47,758 bases of DNA, from the IMG/VR virus record IMGVR_UViG_3300027987_000038, positions 1 through 47,758 of that record; one strand, given 5' to 3'. The notes under the pieces are model-generated. The model ran no database searches. It was not told where the DNA came from and was given only the letters and a program-made list of their open reading frames with translations. The translations under genes were made by a program, and so were the position numbers. Below, piece after piece: positions 2,735 to 45,175 of the stretch. Numbering within the stretch: position 1 is the first letter of the stretch; each line of letters opens with the position of its first letter. This stretch comes from a virus.

Positions 2735-3484
2735 ATGGAACGCATGGCTGTCCCAATCAATCAGCCACGCGCAAGCAACAGAGTAGTAATTGGTGTCCCT
2801 TGCGGAGACATGGTATCAGCCTACTTCGCGTACGATCTTGCACGGCTCGTCGGCTACACCGCGATGCACGTTCCCGACACGTCGCTGCAGATACTATTTC
2901 ATCACGGGACGCTGATTGCACCCCAACGACAAGACATTGCGAAGGCGTCAGTCGCCGCAGAAGCGACGCACATCCTGTGGCTGGACGCTGACATGAGATT
3001 TCCGAAGCAATCGCTAGAGGGATTGCTCAAACAAGACGTTGACATCGTCGGCGCGAACTACATTCGGCGTCGGCCACCTCACTACCCGACCGCGTGGGCC
3101 AAGGGCAACTATCTGTGGACCTACGAAGACTCGGAAGGTTTGGTTGAGGTTGACCACGTAGGCATGGGCTTGATGCTCACGAAGACGAGAGTGTTCGAGG
3201 AGACGCCGATGCCTTGGTTCCAGATTCCGTGGGTAGAGGAGCGCGGGACGTATCGAGGCGAGGACATCACGTTCATGGAAGCAGCGCGCAACGCGGGCTT
3301 CAAGGTCTATGTAGACCAGAGCCTCTCGTGGTTCGTGCAGCACACCGGAACGATGGAGTACTCTCACATTCACGGGCTCGACGCAGCGGAGTTCGAGCGG
3401 CGTATGAAGGAGGCGGAAGATGGCGCAGATAACAAGTTACTCGACTCTGCAGACGGAGATAGCGAACTGGCTGAACAGGGCTGA
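2735..3484 (+). CDS. GT2-like glycosyltransferase
   Basis: The roughly 249-residue product resembles GT-A-fold family 2 glycosyltransferases: a VVIGVPCGDM opening strand, an AQRQDIAKASVAA-like helix, the LWLDADM segment carrying the DxD metal/nucleotide-sugar motif, and a later GED (RGEDITF) typical of the acceptor-side acidic residue. Such genes are often found among phage head genes; the substrate (virion protein, DNA or cell surface) cannot be told. The start may be ATG 2735 or ATG 2744; neither has a strong ribosome site. The 3' end overlaps the adaptor gene by 65 bases. Confidence 0.75.
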   Translation: MERMAVPINQPRASNRVVIGVPCGDMVSAYFAYDLARLVGYTAMHVPDTSLQILFHHGTLIAPQRQDIAKASVAAEATHILWLDADMRFPKQSLEGLLKQDVDIVGANYIRRRPPHYPTAWAKGNYLWTYEDSEGLVEVDHVGMGLMLTKTRVFEETPMPWFQIPWVEERGTYRGEDITFMEAARNAGFKVYVDQSLSWFVQHTGTMEYSHIHGLDAAEFERRMKEAEDGADNKLLDSADGDSELAEQG

Positions 3485-4073
3485 CCTAACATCGGACATC
3501 CCGACGTTCATCCAGCTAGCGGAATCGCGCATAAAGCGCGTGCTACGGACTAAGCACAAGACGCTGCAGTCCGTTGCCGTCACAGCAGACACCGGGTCGT
3601 ACACAGTCACCGACGCAGTTGAGAACATGGCTGTGTTCCTCACGTCACCGGCTGGTGATGAGGGCGAACTCAACGTGGTCCCGATTCAAGACCTGTTCAA
3701 CAATCGGAGACTCAACTACGGGCTAACGGCGCGGCCAGAGATGGTCTCGTTCGTGGGCACGACTATGTACGTATCGCCCATCCCCGACACGTCGTACACG
3801 CTGCAGTTGAGCACGCAAGCGCTCACGCCGCTGTCCACGACGAACACAACGAACACGATTCTCACCGAGTACCCCGACGTGTATCTCTACGGGGCGCTCG
3901 TGGCTGCGGAGCCGTTTGTGCAGAACGACTCGCGCTTGCCCCTTTGGAAAACTCAGTACGACGAAGCGCTGGCAGAGTTGGAGATCGCTCGCGACCGGTG
4001 GGAATATCCCCACCCGGTGCAGAAAGCTCCATTGAACTTGGCACCGATCTCAACGATCAAGGGAGGTAGATAA
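3420..4073 (+). CDS. Head-to-tail adaptor protein
   Basis: The 217-residue protein opens with TLQTEIANWLNRADL and IPTFIQLAESRIKRVLR, the helical N terminus I associate with the SU10-type adaptor proteins that sit beneath the portal. Beta-rich central and C-terminal parts follow, including a YPDVYLYGALVAAEPFV helix common in the family. It would bind the portal ring and receive the nozzle. The start lies inside the glycosyltransferase gene, with GGAGGCGGAAG before the ATG, and the stop overlaps the next ATG (TAATG). Confidence 0.8.
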   Translation: MAQITSYSTLQTEIANWLNRADLTSDIPTFIQLAESRIKRVLRTKHKTLQSVAVTADTGSYTVTDAVENMAVFLTSPAGDEGELNVVPIQDLFNNRRLNYGLTARPEMVSFVGTTMYVSPIPDTSYTLQLSTQALTPLSTTNTTNTILTEYPDVYLYGALVAAEPFVQNDSRLPLWKTQYDEALAELEIARDRWEYPHPVQKAPLNLAPISTIKGGR

Positions 4074-35666: not shown

Positions 35667-37609
35667 GCTGCTACCCCTACTTTCTGTCGTTCGTTCGGCT
35701 CCCACGTTACCGTGAGCGCTTCCACTGCCTCGGCTGTGGTGTAACCCAGACGGTGGGCATCGAGGATCGAACGCGTGCTGACTACGCGCTCCAGACGCAA
35801 CTGCGCGACCTTGGCGCGGATCTGCCAAAACGTTCGGAGGATCTCTGTGTCACCGACCAGGGACTTCTCCAGCGCTTGGTCGTAGTCCATCCGCAGCGTG
35901 CCCATGCGGAACCGGTCGAGGAACGCTTCGTCGAGGCGCGTAGCGCTCGTGTAGAGCCTGTCTGCGCCTGTGCCAGCGGTGTTGCCCGCTGCCATGATGA
36001 CAAAGTCCTTGTGCTGCTTTGCAACCGGGTTCTCGAACCGCGCCGGAATCGGGAGGCGACGGTTGGCGAGCGCTTGGTTCAACACACTCAGTACGTTCGG
36101 GTCACTGCGGTCTGCCTCGTCGAGCAGGAAGACTCCACCCTCTTCGTACAGCTTGACGAACATCGCCGGGATGTAGACGAACTTGCCCTCTCCCAGCGGG
36201 AGCCGCCAGCCCTGCACTTGCGACTCACTGGTGCCCATCGTTGTGCTCAGTGCGAAGAACTCTAGGCCAAGTGCCTCTGCAATCTGCTCTGCAAGGTGAG
36301 TCTTCCCACTGCCACTCGGGCCGAACAGGTACACCGGCTGGCGAGCCTTCGCTAACCGCAGCACCTTGTCGAACAGCGGATGAGTGTGTCCTTTGATCTC
36401 ACGCACCACGTTGTCCTTCTCATCCACGATCTGGATTTTCTGTGGGCGCAACTTGGCGAACTCCTCTGCAATGATCTGGCGCACTGCGCTCTCGTTCACT
36501 GCGGGAGCCTGCTTCGGTGCTCCGCTGTTCTCTGCTATCTCTGCTACCATCGACGCGAGCGCTTCAATGTCGCCACCCAGCTTCTCGTGCACTAGCTTGA
36601 GACTCTGTGCCAACATGTCGGCTACGCTCTGCTGGATCTTCTTCTCTGCTTCCTCACCAACAAGCGGCGGCGCTTTGACTCGCAACAGTTGGATGTCGTC
36701 GTCCTGTATCGGACGCGGCTCGGGCTTGGTCTCCTCGTCAAGCAACTGTTGGAAGCGCTCTTGTATCGACTGCTGCTGGTCCTTCTGCTTCTTCTTGGCC
36801 TGCTCGATGGTCTGCTTGATAGCGTCCATCAGGTCGTCAGCGGCTTCGTTCTGCTGCTGCGCAAACATCTCGCTGACTGTCCACTTGGAAGGCGCGAGGA
36901 ACCGTTTCGTCTGTTCCATTGCGTTGACATCACTCGCGGCCTTCACGTTCGTAGCAACGCGCACGTACCTGTTGGCGTTCTCTCCATTCTTCGCTTTGCA
37001 GTACACGTTGAACGCACTGTTGCCCTTGCCGTCGCTCGATGCTTGCTTCCCCCGAGTGTCTGCTGTGTCACTAATGATTTCACCAACATCATTGAAGTCC
37101 TTTTCTATGTTCGTTGCCTTGGCAAACTCCTGCAACAGGTTCTTCTCTGGTGCTGGTGTAGCGTCGCCTGCACCCGCGTCTGCGGTGTCGCTGCTCTGCT
37201 GCTCTTTCTTCATGGTGCTGTTGAGCCACGCCTTGTGAGCGTCCATCTGCTTCATCCACGCGGCGCTGCCAATCACCTCTGGCCCATACTTGGGAGGAGG
37301 CGCGTAAGGAACGTCTGTCATCTGTGGATCTTCCTTCCAGTAGTAGGGTTTCAGTAACGGCGTTACGTACACGTCACTCGGCAACTTCGCGAGTGACACG
37401 CCACCGGTCTTCGATTCACGCACCAGTTTGAAGGGCTTGCCACTGCCCAAGCACAACAGCGTCACGCGCTGCACGTACTCGTTGCCCTTCGCACTGACGC
37501 GGAACCACGCGCCAGCCTGCAGCACCGTCGTCGCGTTGGTCTGCGGCTTGCTGCTGAAGTAATTGCGCACGCGCTCTAGGTCGCGCACTCGGTTGTCGTA
37601 AATCCTCAC
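35663..37609 (-). CDS. MoxR/CobS-type AAA+ ATPase
   Basis: The 648-residue product has an N-terminal beta domain (about 1-100), a long charged coiled region (about 110-400), and a C-terminal AAA_5-type ATPase. Walker A is FGPSGSGKT (about 427-434), Walker B VFLLDEADRSDPN (about 490), sensor 1 MAAGNT, and arginine finger region LDEAFLDRFR. MoxR proteins work with VWA partners as chaperones for metal insertion or complex remodelling; the VWA-like gene directly downstream fits. There is no GAFTGA loop, so it is not a sigma-54 activator. Confidence 0.85.
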   Translation of the reverse strand: MRIYDNRVRDLERVRNYFSSKPQTNATTVLQAGAWFRVSAKGNEYVQRVTLLCLGSGKPFKLVRESKTGGVSLAKLPSDVYVTPLLKPYYWKEDPQMTDVPYAPPPKYGPEVIGSAAWMKQMDAHKAWLNSTMKKEQQSSDTADAGAGDATPAPEKNLLQEFAKATNIEKDFNDVGEIISDTADTRGKQASSDGKGNSAFNVYCKAKNGENANRYVRVATNVKAASDVNAMEQTKRFLAPSKWTVSEMFAQQQNEAADDLMDAIKQTIEQAKKKQKDQQQSIQERFQQLLDEETKPEPRPIQDDDIQLLRVKAPPLVGEEAEKKIQQSVADMLAQSLKLVHEKLGGDIEALASMVAEIAENSGAPKQAPAVNESAVRQIIAEEFAKLRPQKIQIVDEKDNVVREIKGHTHPLFDKVLRLAKARQPVYLFGPSGSGKTHLAEQIAEALGLEFFALSTTMGTSESQVQGWRLPLGEGKFVYIPAMFVKLYEEGGVFLLDEADRSDPNVLSVLNQALANRRLPIPARFENPVAKQHKDFVIMAAGNTAGTGADRLYTSATRLDEAFLDRFRMGTLRMDYDQALEKSLVGDTEILRTFWQIRAKVAQLRLERVVSTRSILDAHRLGYTTAEAVEALTVTWEPNERQKVGVAA

Positions 37610-42079: not shown

Positions 42080-42095
42080 AGCAGGAAGCGTGCCA
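42080..42095 (-). promoter_or_regulatory. Isolated sigma-54-type element facing the early block
   Basis: On the minus strand the sequence is TGGCACGCTTCCTGCT: full -24 box TGGCACG, four bases, then CTGCT for TTGCW (one mismatch, with GG and GC kept at the correct 10-bp spacing). Transcription would start near 42068 and run toward the gene at 41525. It is the only such element outside the 43026-43251 array that I found. Confidence 0.5.
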
Positions 42096-42176: not shown

Positions 42177-42434
42177 CTAGACGATTCTGGGGCCTGATTG
42201 GGGCGAATCGTCTAATCGTCTAGTAAATCGTCTATACCTAAAGCCATATAACACAAGGAGTTATGACGATTAGACGATTCTATGTACCTACCATCACATG
42301 GGGAGTATAGAATGCGTATATGACATACGTAAATTACGCTATAGGAAGGTCTTGGAAACGGCCCTAAAACCGGCTAGTTCGAGCGCGAACATGGGCTAAG
42401 TCGATACCCTGCAAGGCTTTGCAGCTAGACGATT
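42177..42434. repeat. Seven-copy 9-bp repeat cluster (TAGACGATT)
   Basis: TAGACGATT or its complement AATCGTCTA occurs at 42178-42186 (+), 42206-42214 (-), 42214-42222 (-), 42226-42234 (-), 42263-42271 (+, one mismatch, TGACGATT core), 42271-42279 (+) and 42426-42434 (+). Some copies are 8 bp apart and share a base. An AT-rich segment with TACGTA lies at about 42310-42345. This could be a replication origin with iterons, or operators for an early regulator. Confidence 0.65.
42263..42310 (+). CDS. Possible 15-residue leader peptide
   Basis: ATG 42263 has a strong AAGGAG ribosome site 2 bases upstream and encodes MTIRRFYVPTITWGV before TAG. It is embedded in the 9-bp repeat cluster, so it may be fortuitous; a leader peptide before the terminase transcript is the alternative. 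Low certainty. Confidence 0.25.
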   Translation: MTIRRFYVPTITWGV

Positions 42435-42505: not shown

Positions 42506-42979
42506 ATGGCTGGTAGACCTATCTACCGTGAGGCCGTGGTGCGCATTGAGGACAAGGGCGGGGAGGCATACGTTCTGGAGTGCATCATGGATGGCCACCC
42601 TACGGCCGCAGTTGCCGCTGTGTGCGACATCTCGCGAGGCATGCTATACGAGTGGCTGCACAAGGACAACGAGCGCTGGGAGCGATACCAGGAGGCGAGG
42701 CGCATAGGTGCGCACGTCCTGGCAGAGCAGGCGTTGGAGATTGTAGACGACGCCACGAGTGAGACCATTGCAGTCGATAGGGAACGTGCACGCATACGCC
42801 AGTGGTTGGCAGAGCGTGCGAACCCTCGCGACTTCGGGAAGGAGGCAGGCGTGCAGGTGAACCTGTCGATAGGTGACTTGCATCTACAAGCAGTGAAGCA
42901 AGCGGCTCTGCCTAGCCCGCGAGACAACATCGAGGACGCAGAGTATGAGGTGCTGCCCGAGCTAGATGACTTGCTGTAG
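42506..42979 (+). CDS. terS: Terminase small subunit
   Basis: The 157-residue product has an HTH-like N terminus (HPTAAVAAVCDISRGMLYEWLHKDNERWERYQEARR) and the ALEIVDDATSETIAVDRERARIRQWLAERANPRDFG segment I recognise from phage terminase small subunits of this type. It would bind the packaging site and load the large subunit. GGAGG lies 7 bases before the ATG. It is separated from the large subunit by a 488-bp control region and one small gene; the array there may be its binding site. Confidence 0.85.
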   Translation: MAGRPIYREAVVRIEDKGGEAYVLECIMDGHPTAAVAAVCDISRGMLYEWLHKDNERWERYQEARRIGAHVLAEQALEIVDDATSETIAVDRERARIRQWLAERANPRDFGKEAGVQVNLSIGDLHLQAVKQAALPSPRDNIEDAEYEVLPELDDLL

Positions 42980-43025: not shown

Positions 43026-43251
43026 TGGCACGATACTTGCTAGGCCCACGCTGGCACGATTATTAATCGTGCCAGCGTGCCACGCTGGCAGCGTGGCATG
43101 GTTATTGCTGTGCCTGCAAGCTGCGTGCCACGGCCAGCGTGGCACGCAGCTTGCTGGCACCGCAACAATCGTGCCACCGGCTCGGTGGCACGATACTTGC
43201 TGACGCTGTGATGGCACGCATCTTGCTCCGGTACCTGCAGGTTTCGTGCCA
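43026..43251. promoter_or_regulatory. Array of eight sigma-54 -24/-12 elements
   Basis: Plus-strand elements: 43026-43041, 43094-43109, 43140-43155, 43186-43201 and 43212-43227. Minus-strand: 43115-43130, 43161-43176 and 43236-43251. Four plus and one minus match TGGCACG-N4-TTGCW exactly (for example TGGCACGATACTTGCT, found twice); the others have one mismatch, and all keep GG and GC 10 bp apart. From 43094 on, centres alternate about 21 and 25 bp. A 25-bp inverted repeat at 43051-43075 holds two more TGGCACG halves without TTGC. The array could be promoters, a sigma-54 sink or a terminase binding site. Confidence 0.8.
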
Positions 43252-43410: not shown

Positions 43411-43439
43411 TTGACAGATCGTTGGCAGCTAGGTAAATT
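43411..43439 (+). promoter_or_regulatory. Promoter for late packaging genes
   Basis: TTGACA (43411-43416), 17-bp spacer and TAAATT (43434-43439) in CTAGGTAAATTTC. It is the best sigma-70 match of the motif family. Start near 43446 would give a short leader to ATG 43468. The leader carries the same TGGAGGACCGA box as the terS leader. Confidence 0.7.
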
Positions 43440-43467: not shown

Positions 43468-43767
43468 ATGTCAGAACAACTCGACGTGTCACCGGAGGAG
43501 TTTGTCAGTTCGCTCGAAGAGTTGCTGGGCGACGACGAACCGGACACGCAACCGGTTGCCGAAGCGGACGAGCCCTCGTTCGCAGACGCAATCGCGAACC
43601 CGGTGCCGAAGGAGGCACCGAACCCACCGCAAGACGAGCCCGATTGGAACCGCTTGTACGAAGACCTGAAGTGGGTCTGGAGTCGCGAGCGCAACCGGCT
43701 GTCGCGCCAAGCGCAGCAAAGGCTCGGACGCATCCGCGAATTTCTGTTGGAGCGGCGTGGCGTCTAA
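43468..43767 (+). CDS. Small acidic protein before terL
   Basis: The 99-residue product has an acidic N-terminal half (EEFVSSLEELLGDDEPDTQPVAEADEPSF) and a basic aromatic C-terminal half (WNRLYEDLKWVWSRERNRLSRQAQQRLGRIREFLLERR). The start is ATG 43468, with GGAGG 7 bases before, downstream of a clear promoter. It overlaps terL by 11 bases and may take part in packaging. No family recognised. Confidence 0.65.
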   Translation: MSEQLDVSPEEFVSSLEELLGDDEPDTQPVAEADEPSFADAIANPVPKEAPNPPQDEPDWNRLYEDLKWVWSRERNRLSRQAQQRLGRIREFLLERRGV

Positions 43768-45175
43768 TCAGTTCCTCGCGTACGTCCAGAAGTACGCTTT
43801 CGATCCTGTCCAGTGGGTCTGTGACTCTTTCAACGTAGAGCCGGACGGCTGGCAGTGCGACGTTCTCAATGCCTACGCCGCAGGTGAGCGGCGCATCTCG
43901 GTGCGATCCGCTCACGGCGTAGGCAAAACCGCAGTCGTCGCATGGATGTCAATTCACCACATGATATTCAGATTCCCGCAGAAGACCGCAATCACCGCGC
44001 CGTCGCGACCGCAAGCGTTCGACGCGTTGTACGCGGAGATCCGGCATTGGATAAAAATGCTTCCCGAAGCATTGCAGAAGCTGTTCGACGTCAAGGCCGA
44101 CCGTATCGAGTTGAAGGCTGCGCCGCAGAGTAGCTTTCTCTCGGTACGGACGAGCCGTGCCGACCAGCCCGAAGCGCTGCAAGGTGTTCACTCCGACAAC
44201 GTGCTGCTGATTGGCGACGAGGCGTCCGGTATTCCTGAGACGGTGTTCGAAGCTGCGGCAGGTTCGATGTCGTCAGAGAATGCGCTCACAGTGCTGATCG
44301 GAAACCCGGTGCGTACGAGCGGGCTGTTCTTCGACACGCACCACAAGCTCAAGGACATGTGGTACACCGTGCACGTCAGCGCGTTCGACACGGAGCGCGT
44401 CGTGGACGACTTCATCAACGACATCGCGCGCAGGTACGGCGAGGACTCGAACGCGTACCGCATCCGCGTGCTCGGAGAGTTCCCACGTACAGACGACGAC
44501 TCAATCATTCCGTACTACTTGATTGAGGAGGCGGTGAACCGCGAAGTGATTCCGCACCCGAACACGACAGAAGTGTGGGGCCTCGACGTCGCGCGCTTCG
44601 GCTCCGACCGCAGCGCGTTGTGCAAGCGCAAGGGCAGTGTGGTCACCGAGCCGATCAAAGTGTGGCACGGTCTCGACCTCATGCAGCTAACGGGCGCGGT
44701 CAAGCACGAGTGGGACGAGACGCCGATCCACTTGCGACCGAAGCAAATCTACGTAGACGCAATCGGAGTCGGTGCGGGTGTTGCCGACCGCTTGCGCGAG
44801 CTTGGACTGCCAATCGTCGCGGTGAACGTCAGCGAAGCGCCCGCGATGGGCATGCAGTTCCGCAACCAGCGCACAGAGCTTTGGTTCGAGGCGAAGAAGT
44901 GGCTCGAATCGAAAGTTGCATCACTCCCCGCGAACGACAGTGTGTTCACAACCGAGTTGTCGATACTCAAGTACTCGTACACGAGCACCGGCAAACTGCA
45001 GGCTGAGAGCAAGGCCGACGTGAAGAAGCGACTCGGTAAGGAAGGACGCAGCACCGACCTCGCAGACGCGTTCGTCTTGACTTTCGCCGGGGGCGGTGGT
45101 ATATTAATGTACGGCTCTCTTGCCAATTCTAGCTGGAATGAGCCGCTCAAGCGCAACATCAAGGGGGTAGTCTAA
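43757..45175 (+). CDS. terL: Terminase large subunit
   Basis: The 472-residue protein starts at GTG 43757. ATPase: Walker A SAHGVGKT (51-58), Walker B NVLLIGDE (Asp154, Glu155). Nuclease: GLDVARFG with Asp277, YVDAIGVG with Asp334, and STDLADAF with Asp437, the three acidic metal ligands of the RNase H-like domain. It translocates DNA into the prohead through the portal and cuts the concatemer. The length is typical. Its stop overlaps the portal ATG (TAATG). Confidence 0.93.
   Translation: MASNQFLAYVQKYAFDPVQWVCDSFNVEPDGWQCDVLNAYAAGERRISVRSAHGVGKTAVVAWMSIHHMIFRFPQKTAITAPSRPQAFDALYAEIRHWIKMLPEALQKLFDVKADRIELKAAPQSSFLSVRTSRADQPEALQGVHSDNVLLIGDEASGIPETVFEAAAGSMSSENALTVLIGNPVRTSGLFFDTHHKLKDMWYTVHVSAFDTERVVDDFINDIARRYGEDSNAYRIRVLGEFPRTDDDSIIPYYLIEEAVNREVIPHPNTTEVWGLDVARFGSDRSALCKRKGSVVTEPIKVWHGLDLMQLTGAVKHEWDETPIHLRPKQIYVDAIGVGAGVADRLRELGLPIVAVNVSEAPAMGMQFRNQRTELWFEAKKWLESKVASLPANDSVFTTELSILKYSYTSTGKLQAESKADVKKRLGKEGRSTDLADAFVLTFAGGGGILMYGSLANSSWNEPLKRNIKGVV

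Follow-up and report, generated by a model that had tools for sequence, protein, structure and literature searches.

Why does a phage carry a dense cluster of sites of the sigma-54 promoter type between the genes for its two terminase subunits, and what could such a cluster do? The array occupies positions 43026–43251 of the stretch of viral DNA analysed here (the window; 47,758 nucleotides, positions 1 to 47,758 of IMG/VR record IMGVR_UViG_3300027987_000038). A sequence-only reading had counted eight sites there fitting TGGCACG-N4-TTGCW and had offered three roles for them: a sink for the host sigma-54 factor RpoN, a bidirectional sigma-54 promoter cluster or a packaging site for the small terminase. 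In a search of the window, all eight sites were found where they had been placed, five exact and three with one mismatch (consensus used for mismatch counts, TGGCACGNNNNTTGCW). The features of the locus are listed below, with the sigma-54 elements assigned by the pattern together with a matrix of Escherichia coli sites.

42080–42095, minus strand: lone sigma-54 element of the divergent intergenic region, directed into the leftward operon (86th percentile of E. coli sites)
42506–42979, plus strand: terminase small subunit (terS), left neighbour of the array (phrog_1482, E = 5e-15)
43026–43041, plus strand: sigma-54 element 1, exact, TGGCACGATACTTGCT (98th percentile of E. coli sites)
43052–43082, no strand assigned: degenerate stretch with TGGCACG at 43052 (plus), 43059 (minus) and 43067 (minus), each without a proper −12 part
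43094–43109, plus strand: sigma-54 element 2, one mismatch, TGGCATGGTTATTGCT
43115–43130, minus strand: sigma-54 element 3, exact, TGGCACGCAGCTTGCA
43140–43155, plus strand: sigma-54 element 4, exact, TGGCACGCAGCTTGCT
43161–43176, minus strand: sigma-54 element 5, one mismatch, TGGCACGATTGTTGCG
43186–43201, plus strand: sigma-54 element 6, exact, TGGCACGATACTTGCT
43212–43227, plus strand: sigma-54 element 7, exact, TGGCACGCATCTTGCT
43236–43251, minus strand: sigma-54 element 8, one mismatch, TGGCACGAAACCTGCA
43411–43439, plus strand: sigma-70 promoter TTGACA-N17-TAAATT, 160 bp past the array and just before the 99-aa open reading frame
43468–43767, plus strand: 99-aa open reading frame, right neighbour of the array, overlapping terL (no PHROG match)
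43757–45175, plus strand: terminase large subunit (terL), with the portal gene next

As had been claimed, GG and GC lie 10 bp apart in the elements (element test, TGGCAC(G)-N4-TTGC(W)). The reported alternation of centres by about 21 and 25 bp holds for part of the array: start-to-start distances from 43094 run 21, 25, 21, 25 and then 26, 24, and strict alternation ends at 43186/43212, because both members of that pair lie on the plus strand. Three copies of the −24 part alone occupy the 68-bp gap after the first element and are perhaps decayed elements. The 7-mer TGGCACG occurs 12 times outside 43026–43251 when both strands are read, rather than the six times first listed, but none of the 12 has TTGC at the right distance, as had been stated for the six; the lone element at 42080 has CTGCT. 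To the left, the minus-strand operon starts near 41.5–41.9 kb, and the divergent region upstream of terS contains TAGACGATT six times without mismatch, in both orientations (42178–42434); these repeats are likely replication iterons, and no further exact copy was found in the window. Relatives of the window also have iteron-like arrays, 1.5–2.4 kb upstream of terL (L015, about 2680–2900, TTTCTACA; L022, about 3190–3550, TTGCCGATT). A pattern scan found no relatives of the window's small terminase.

To assess whether the array could have arisen by chance, site counts were compared with expectation. Within the 226 bp, eight sites with at most one mismatch were observed against 0.002 expected from base composition, and nine against 0.47 in the whole window. 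When two mismatches were allowed, the window held 24 sites, compared with 10.2 ± 3.5 in dinucleotide shuffles, and none of 100 shuffles reached 24. The eight copies share 91% pairwise identity in the core, 38% in the N4 spacer and 40% in the flanks, which argues that the cores are under selection and not the product of fresh duplication. Chance, composition and recent duplication are thus ruled out by the shuffles, the expected counts and the diverged spacers and flanks.

The type of site was judged with a matrix built from 42 ChIP-mapped intergenic sense sigma-54 sites of E. coli (PMC4591121), a source independent of this phage. Across both strands of 47.8 kb, nine positions score at or above the E. 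coli median, namely the eight array sites and the lone element at 42080. Three sites in the window reach the 98th percentile of E. coli sites, and five of its eight elements match the consensus exactly, compared with 1 of the 42 intergenic E. coli sites. The same holds beyond the window: of 993 array elements, 88% outscore the median E. coli site. Variation across 821 elements falls on C/T at position 6, G/A at position 7, a T before TGGC and a W after TTGC; as read from the sequences, these varying letters are the ones that sigma-54 tolerates.

Spacing gave a second, internal control. When viral contigs were scanned for tandem pairs of elements within 30 bp of each other, an N4 spacer gave at least 120 stretches, an N5 spacer one and an N3 spacer none, indicating that the −24 and −12 parts are coupled at exactly the sigma-54 spacing. 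Together, the spacing controls, the tolerated substitutions and the E. coli scoring strongly support the initial proposal of selected sigma-54-type elements, and RpoN very probably recognizes the array. These data also bear on a further reading, in which the array would be unrelated to sigma-54 and represent either replication origin iterons or a repeat that arose by chance or duplication. Iteron-like repeats do lie upstream of terL in some relatives, and the DnaA boxes described below suggest an origin function at the same place in some of them. However, the cores are fixed while the spacers and N4 letters vary between copies, the N3 and N5 controls and the E. coli matrix agree specifically with sigma-54, and the separate TAGACGATT set means that the array is not the sole repeat cluster of the region. 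We regard this explanation as extremely unlikely.

Arrays of this kind recur in viruses. Among 84,980 prokaryote genomes, none contained a strict alternating triple (plus, minus, plus), which was found in 7 viral stretches; a relaxed triple was found in more than 100 viral stretches and gave 12 matches in the same genomes. On inspection, three of the 12 are real sigma-54 arrays (L154, L155 and L161), all in metagenome-assembled genomes (MAGs). The other nine, six of which were inspected directly, were rejected as sigma-54 arrays, being palindromes or repeats of another kind, such as TGGCAA..TTGCCA. Arrays that alternate at the window's type of spacing (17–21 and 24–26 bp) are recurrent in viral contigs and almost absent from the 84,980 prokaryote genomes. 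Dense palindromic repeats of the TGGCAATNCNATTGCCA type, unrelated to sigma-54, were seen in Bacteroidales MAGs (L151, L157 and L159), on several contigs of the same genomes; they are perhaps a mobile or regulatory repeat.

From the fetched loci, 184 distinct arrays of at least three elements were obtained, and they follow common spacing rules. Of 284 convergent neighbour pairs, 255 are spaced by 17–21 bp; of 261 divergent pairs, 239 by 21–26 or 32–37 bp; and of 258 same-direction pairs, 149 by 25–30 bp. The window comes close to these rules, with convergent spacings of 21, 21 and 24 bp, divergent spacings of 25 and 25 bp and a same-direction spacing of 26 bp. The surplus of alternating arrays in this collection is partly a product of the search pattern. 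The 127 loci with at least four elements form 55 groups at 50% identity, or 25 groups between which the proteins near the array show no homology, with one group dominating; both numbers are inflated by truncated contigs. A 49-kb record (L083, record G020) differs from the usual single cluster, having 24 sigma-54-type sites, several of them in repeated clusters with 46-bp spacing. Twenty cultured phage records of an annotated collection contained no array, and one Vibrio phage among them had one isolated site, so the array set appears concentrated in uncultured lineages. Comparison of 14 concatenated arrays with cultured phages by BLASTN, which is insensitive to short degenerate repeats, gave no match. 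No published description of phage sigma-54 arrays was found in the open-access literature; most papers in subscription journals fall outside that scope. The window array is one member of a recurrent, virus-associated set.

The position of the arrays is equally regular. The large terminase (TerL) is linked within about 4 kb in 66 loci, many of them related, and in every one the array is upstream and terL is transcribed away from it, usually at a distance of 0.8–2.2 kb; 205 of 208 genes from the array through terL are codirectional with terL. The usual site is non-coding DNA between a leftward operon and the sigma-70 promoter of the packaging operon, and the window array is displaced inward by one gene, lying between terS and terL. 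Of 67 loci, 58 have a near-consensus sigma-70 promoter directed at the packaging operon beyond the array (29.5 in shuffles), and 30 have one for the left operon (15 expected); because the loci are related, neither the promoter counts nor the TerL-linked counts are independent. One locus (L110) has a perfect TTGACA-N17-TATAAT for the packaging operon. In the window, the promoter at 43411–43439 can, by its sequence, serve both ORF 43468 and terL, and its 160-bp spacing from the array recurs in L058, L165, L170 and L195.

This arrangement raises the proposal of a bidirectional promoter cluster, in which host sigma-54 holoenzyme and a host activator would transcribe one or both flanking operons and let the phage read the nutritional state of its host. 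The nearest recognizable gene on the non-terL side is transcribed away in 44 of 46 TerL-linked loci, so most of these arrays lie in divergent regions, in favour of such a hub; moreover, TerL-linked arrays with all elements in one direction all point away from terL and toward the leftward operon, as does the lone element at 42080 in the window. By contrast, two long same-direction arrays point at no gene: ten elements between convergent genes in L269, and six elements running against the neighbouring genes in L272. A gene does lie in the pointed direction for some arrays; L269 and L272 clearly have no gene to regulate, a judgement that does not extend to divergent arrays or to the window. A bidirectional promoter role is therefore possible for the divergent cases and not for these two. 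Also against it, the packaging operon, and often the left operon too, already has a sigma-70 promoter, the elements are closer together than polymerase footprints, and the plus-strand elements of the window are followed by 160 bp and then by a sigma-70 promoter.

The hub would also depend on an activator from the host, since none is encoded. The absence of GAFTGA noted earlier was confirmed, the only near match being GAFTGS in the frame of a structural protein, and a candidate activator in the window (a weak PF00158 match at 36275–36379 in the frame of an AAA+ ATPase, phrog_249) was rejected, at 14.8 bits against a cut-off of 20.2. Neither a sigma-54 activator nor a sigma-54 gene was found in 50 array-bearing records, some of which are fragments. 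Several of the long records have nearly all their strong sites in a single cluster, and hence no regulon. On balance, we consider the promoter hub rather unlikely.

A second local role would be occlusion, insulation or a barrier, in which holoenzyme parked between outward-facing sigma-70 promoters would insulate the two operons from each other, repress them or shield DNA close to a genome end. The central position of the array between such promoters is consistent with this, as is the direct terminal repeat that the nearest cultured relative, Sinorhizobium phage phiM5, has at the corresponding junction just upstream of terL; the array can also be swapped for DnaA boxes, which are sites of another host protein. 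Yet the sigma-70 promoters are usually not overlapped, the gap of 160–260 bp is too long for occlusion on the right side, and one array (L269) lies in a convergent region. In addition, intragenic sigma-54 sites had no roadblock effect in the E. coli ChIP study (PMC4591121). We judge this role unlikely.

The third proposed role was a packaging site, made of iterated small-terminase binding sites that resemble sigma-54 sites by chance. Repeated terminase-binding boxes are often present in cos and pac sites, and the array adjoins terS and terL in the window and is upstream of terL in the 66 other loci. A search of related phages, suggested by the sequence-only reading as a check, returned these recurrent arrays upstream of TerL, but no array in relatives of the window with about 50% TerL identity, phiM5 among them. 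Of 50 loci with a TerL at least 85% identical to that of an array-bearing phage and at least 2 kb of upstream sequence, only 8 have an array of at least three elements. Five relatives (L294, L298, L300, L301 and L309) carry 9–11 DnaA boxes (TTATCCACA/TTATGCACA) in the array slot, about 200–500 bp upstream of a 131-aa gene, with a TerL 89–92% identical and an adjacent gene 85–88% identical to those of array phages; these boxes may be a DnaA decoy or an origin. Other relatives have GTGTCAAC-type repeats in the slot. The content of the slot changes while the terminase stays, and the array does not track the terminase, unlike pac and cosB sites, which are expected to be conserved with their cognate terminase. 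As the same sigma-54 consensus also stands beside unrelated genes, the packaging role is weakened by these observations and is, in our view, very unlikely.

Further repeats were seen in the same region. In L321, L336, L339 and L315 the slot holds repeats of the GTGTTGACAC/TGTCAACAC type, partly mixed with sigma-54 elements. In L294, L298, L301, L309, L317, L321, L339 and others, a G-run, CCGGGGGAGGGGG, immediately follows the array, about 207 bp upstream of the 131-aa gene. A pattern search located G-runs in 28 of 49 relatives, about half of which have theirs near −207; the conserved G-run is possibly a genome-end or packaging signal.

We favour, with a probability of about 0.5, the reading that the array consists of high-affinity sites for host sigma-54 that would be used as a DNA decoy. 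Host RpoN would be bound at the array either free or in holoenzyme, each genome copy supplying eight or nine near-consensus sites. At its sites, the sigma-54 holoenzyme is bound in a form inactive for transcription (PMC4591121), and holoenzyme bound here would stay parked, because it cannot open the sites without an activator. Decoy capacity would rise with phage replication, and RpoN-dependent host transcription (nitrogen assimilation, motility, and envelope and RNA-repair responses) would be lowered while the phage operons ran from sigma-70 promoters; the net effect would be that of a nucleic-acid anti-sigma-54. RpoN is a low-copy protein, with about a hundred molecules per E. coli cell; the sites on tens of phage genomes, at eight per genome, would outnumber these molecules, which favours the decoy. 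Some phages can themselves be impeded when rpoN is lost, in part through glutamine limitation (PMC8744999), so the timing of a decoy would matter. For E. coli, no anti-sigma-54 factor is known (PMC3861889).

Several lines of evidence support the decoy. They are the spacing controls, tolerated substitutions, matrix scores and high share of exact sites relative to E. coli; the concentration of arrays in viruses, the 50 records lacking an activator or sigma-54 gene and the lack of a regulon; and the arrays of L269 and L272 and the packaging operon's own sigma-70 promoter. DnaA is a host protein known to be titrated by DnaA boxes, and the slot of near relatives thus carries sites for another titratable host protein. 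Other observations count against the decoy. A sponge needs no place upstream of the terminase, yet the TerL-linked arrays lie there, which suggests a local role; the ones in a single orientation all face the leftward operon, an arrangement that promoters might show; and the 20 array-free cultured phages show that the array is not general. The elements are also, as first remarked, too close for eight polymerases: at 21–26 bp apart they are not all fillable by holoenzyme at once, and occupancy by free sigma-54, or by holoenzyme at every second site, would fit better than holoenzyme at all of them. Of the three roles initially proposed, the RpoN sink fits best, and titration may be the selected effect. 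A broader version, which we advance tentatively on comparative sequence grounds, is a swappable decoy slot, often upstream of packaging genes, that would carry dense site arrays for one host DNA-binding protein or another (sigma-54, DnaA in close relatives or possibly others); the window array would then be a DNA-only anti-sigma-54, drawing off RpoN as genome copies increase.

Phage takeover of host transcription is known as the work of proteins. If the decoy reading is true, plain DNA also serves phages to tie up scarce regulators of the host, and a class of phage non-coding repeats would be explained; we know of no earlier anti-sigma-54 device, and the array would be the first. Sites of the datA type, which titrate DnaA, are similarly clustered, non-coding and of high affinity. 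Synthetic decoy-site arrays (PMC7826281) resemble the phage array in being non-coding high-affinity clusters that could sequester a low-copy protein in proportion to copy number. The phage array differs from both in being phage-carried and in its putative target, a sigma factor. The sigma-54 (−24/−12) promoters of E. coli have the same two elements, spacing and tolerated substitutions as the array, but they are single, mostly imperfect sites (1 of 42 exact), many of which serve a gene (PMC4591121), whereas the phage arrays have 3–11 near-perfect sites 17–37 bp apart, often in both orientations, with no encoded activator and, at some loci, no gene to serve. Like cosB and pac repeats, the array consists of repeated boxes near terminase genes; unlike them, it fits a host consensus and is not retained alongside the terminase. 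T4 AsiA and T7 Gp2 are phage proteins that act on sigma-70 or its holoenzyme. The array would share with them the redirection of host RNA polymerase, with the difference that it is DNA and that its putative target is sigma-54.
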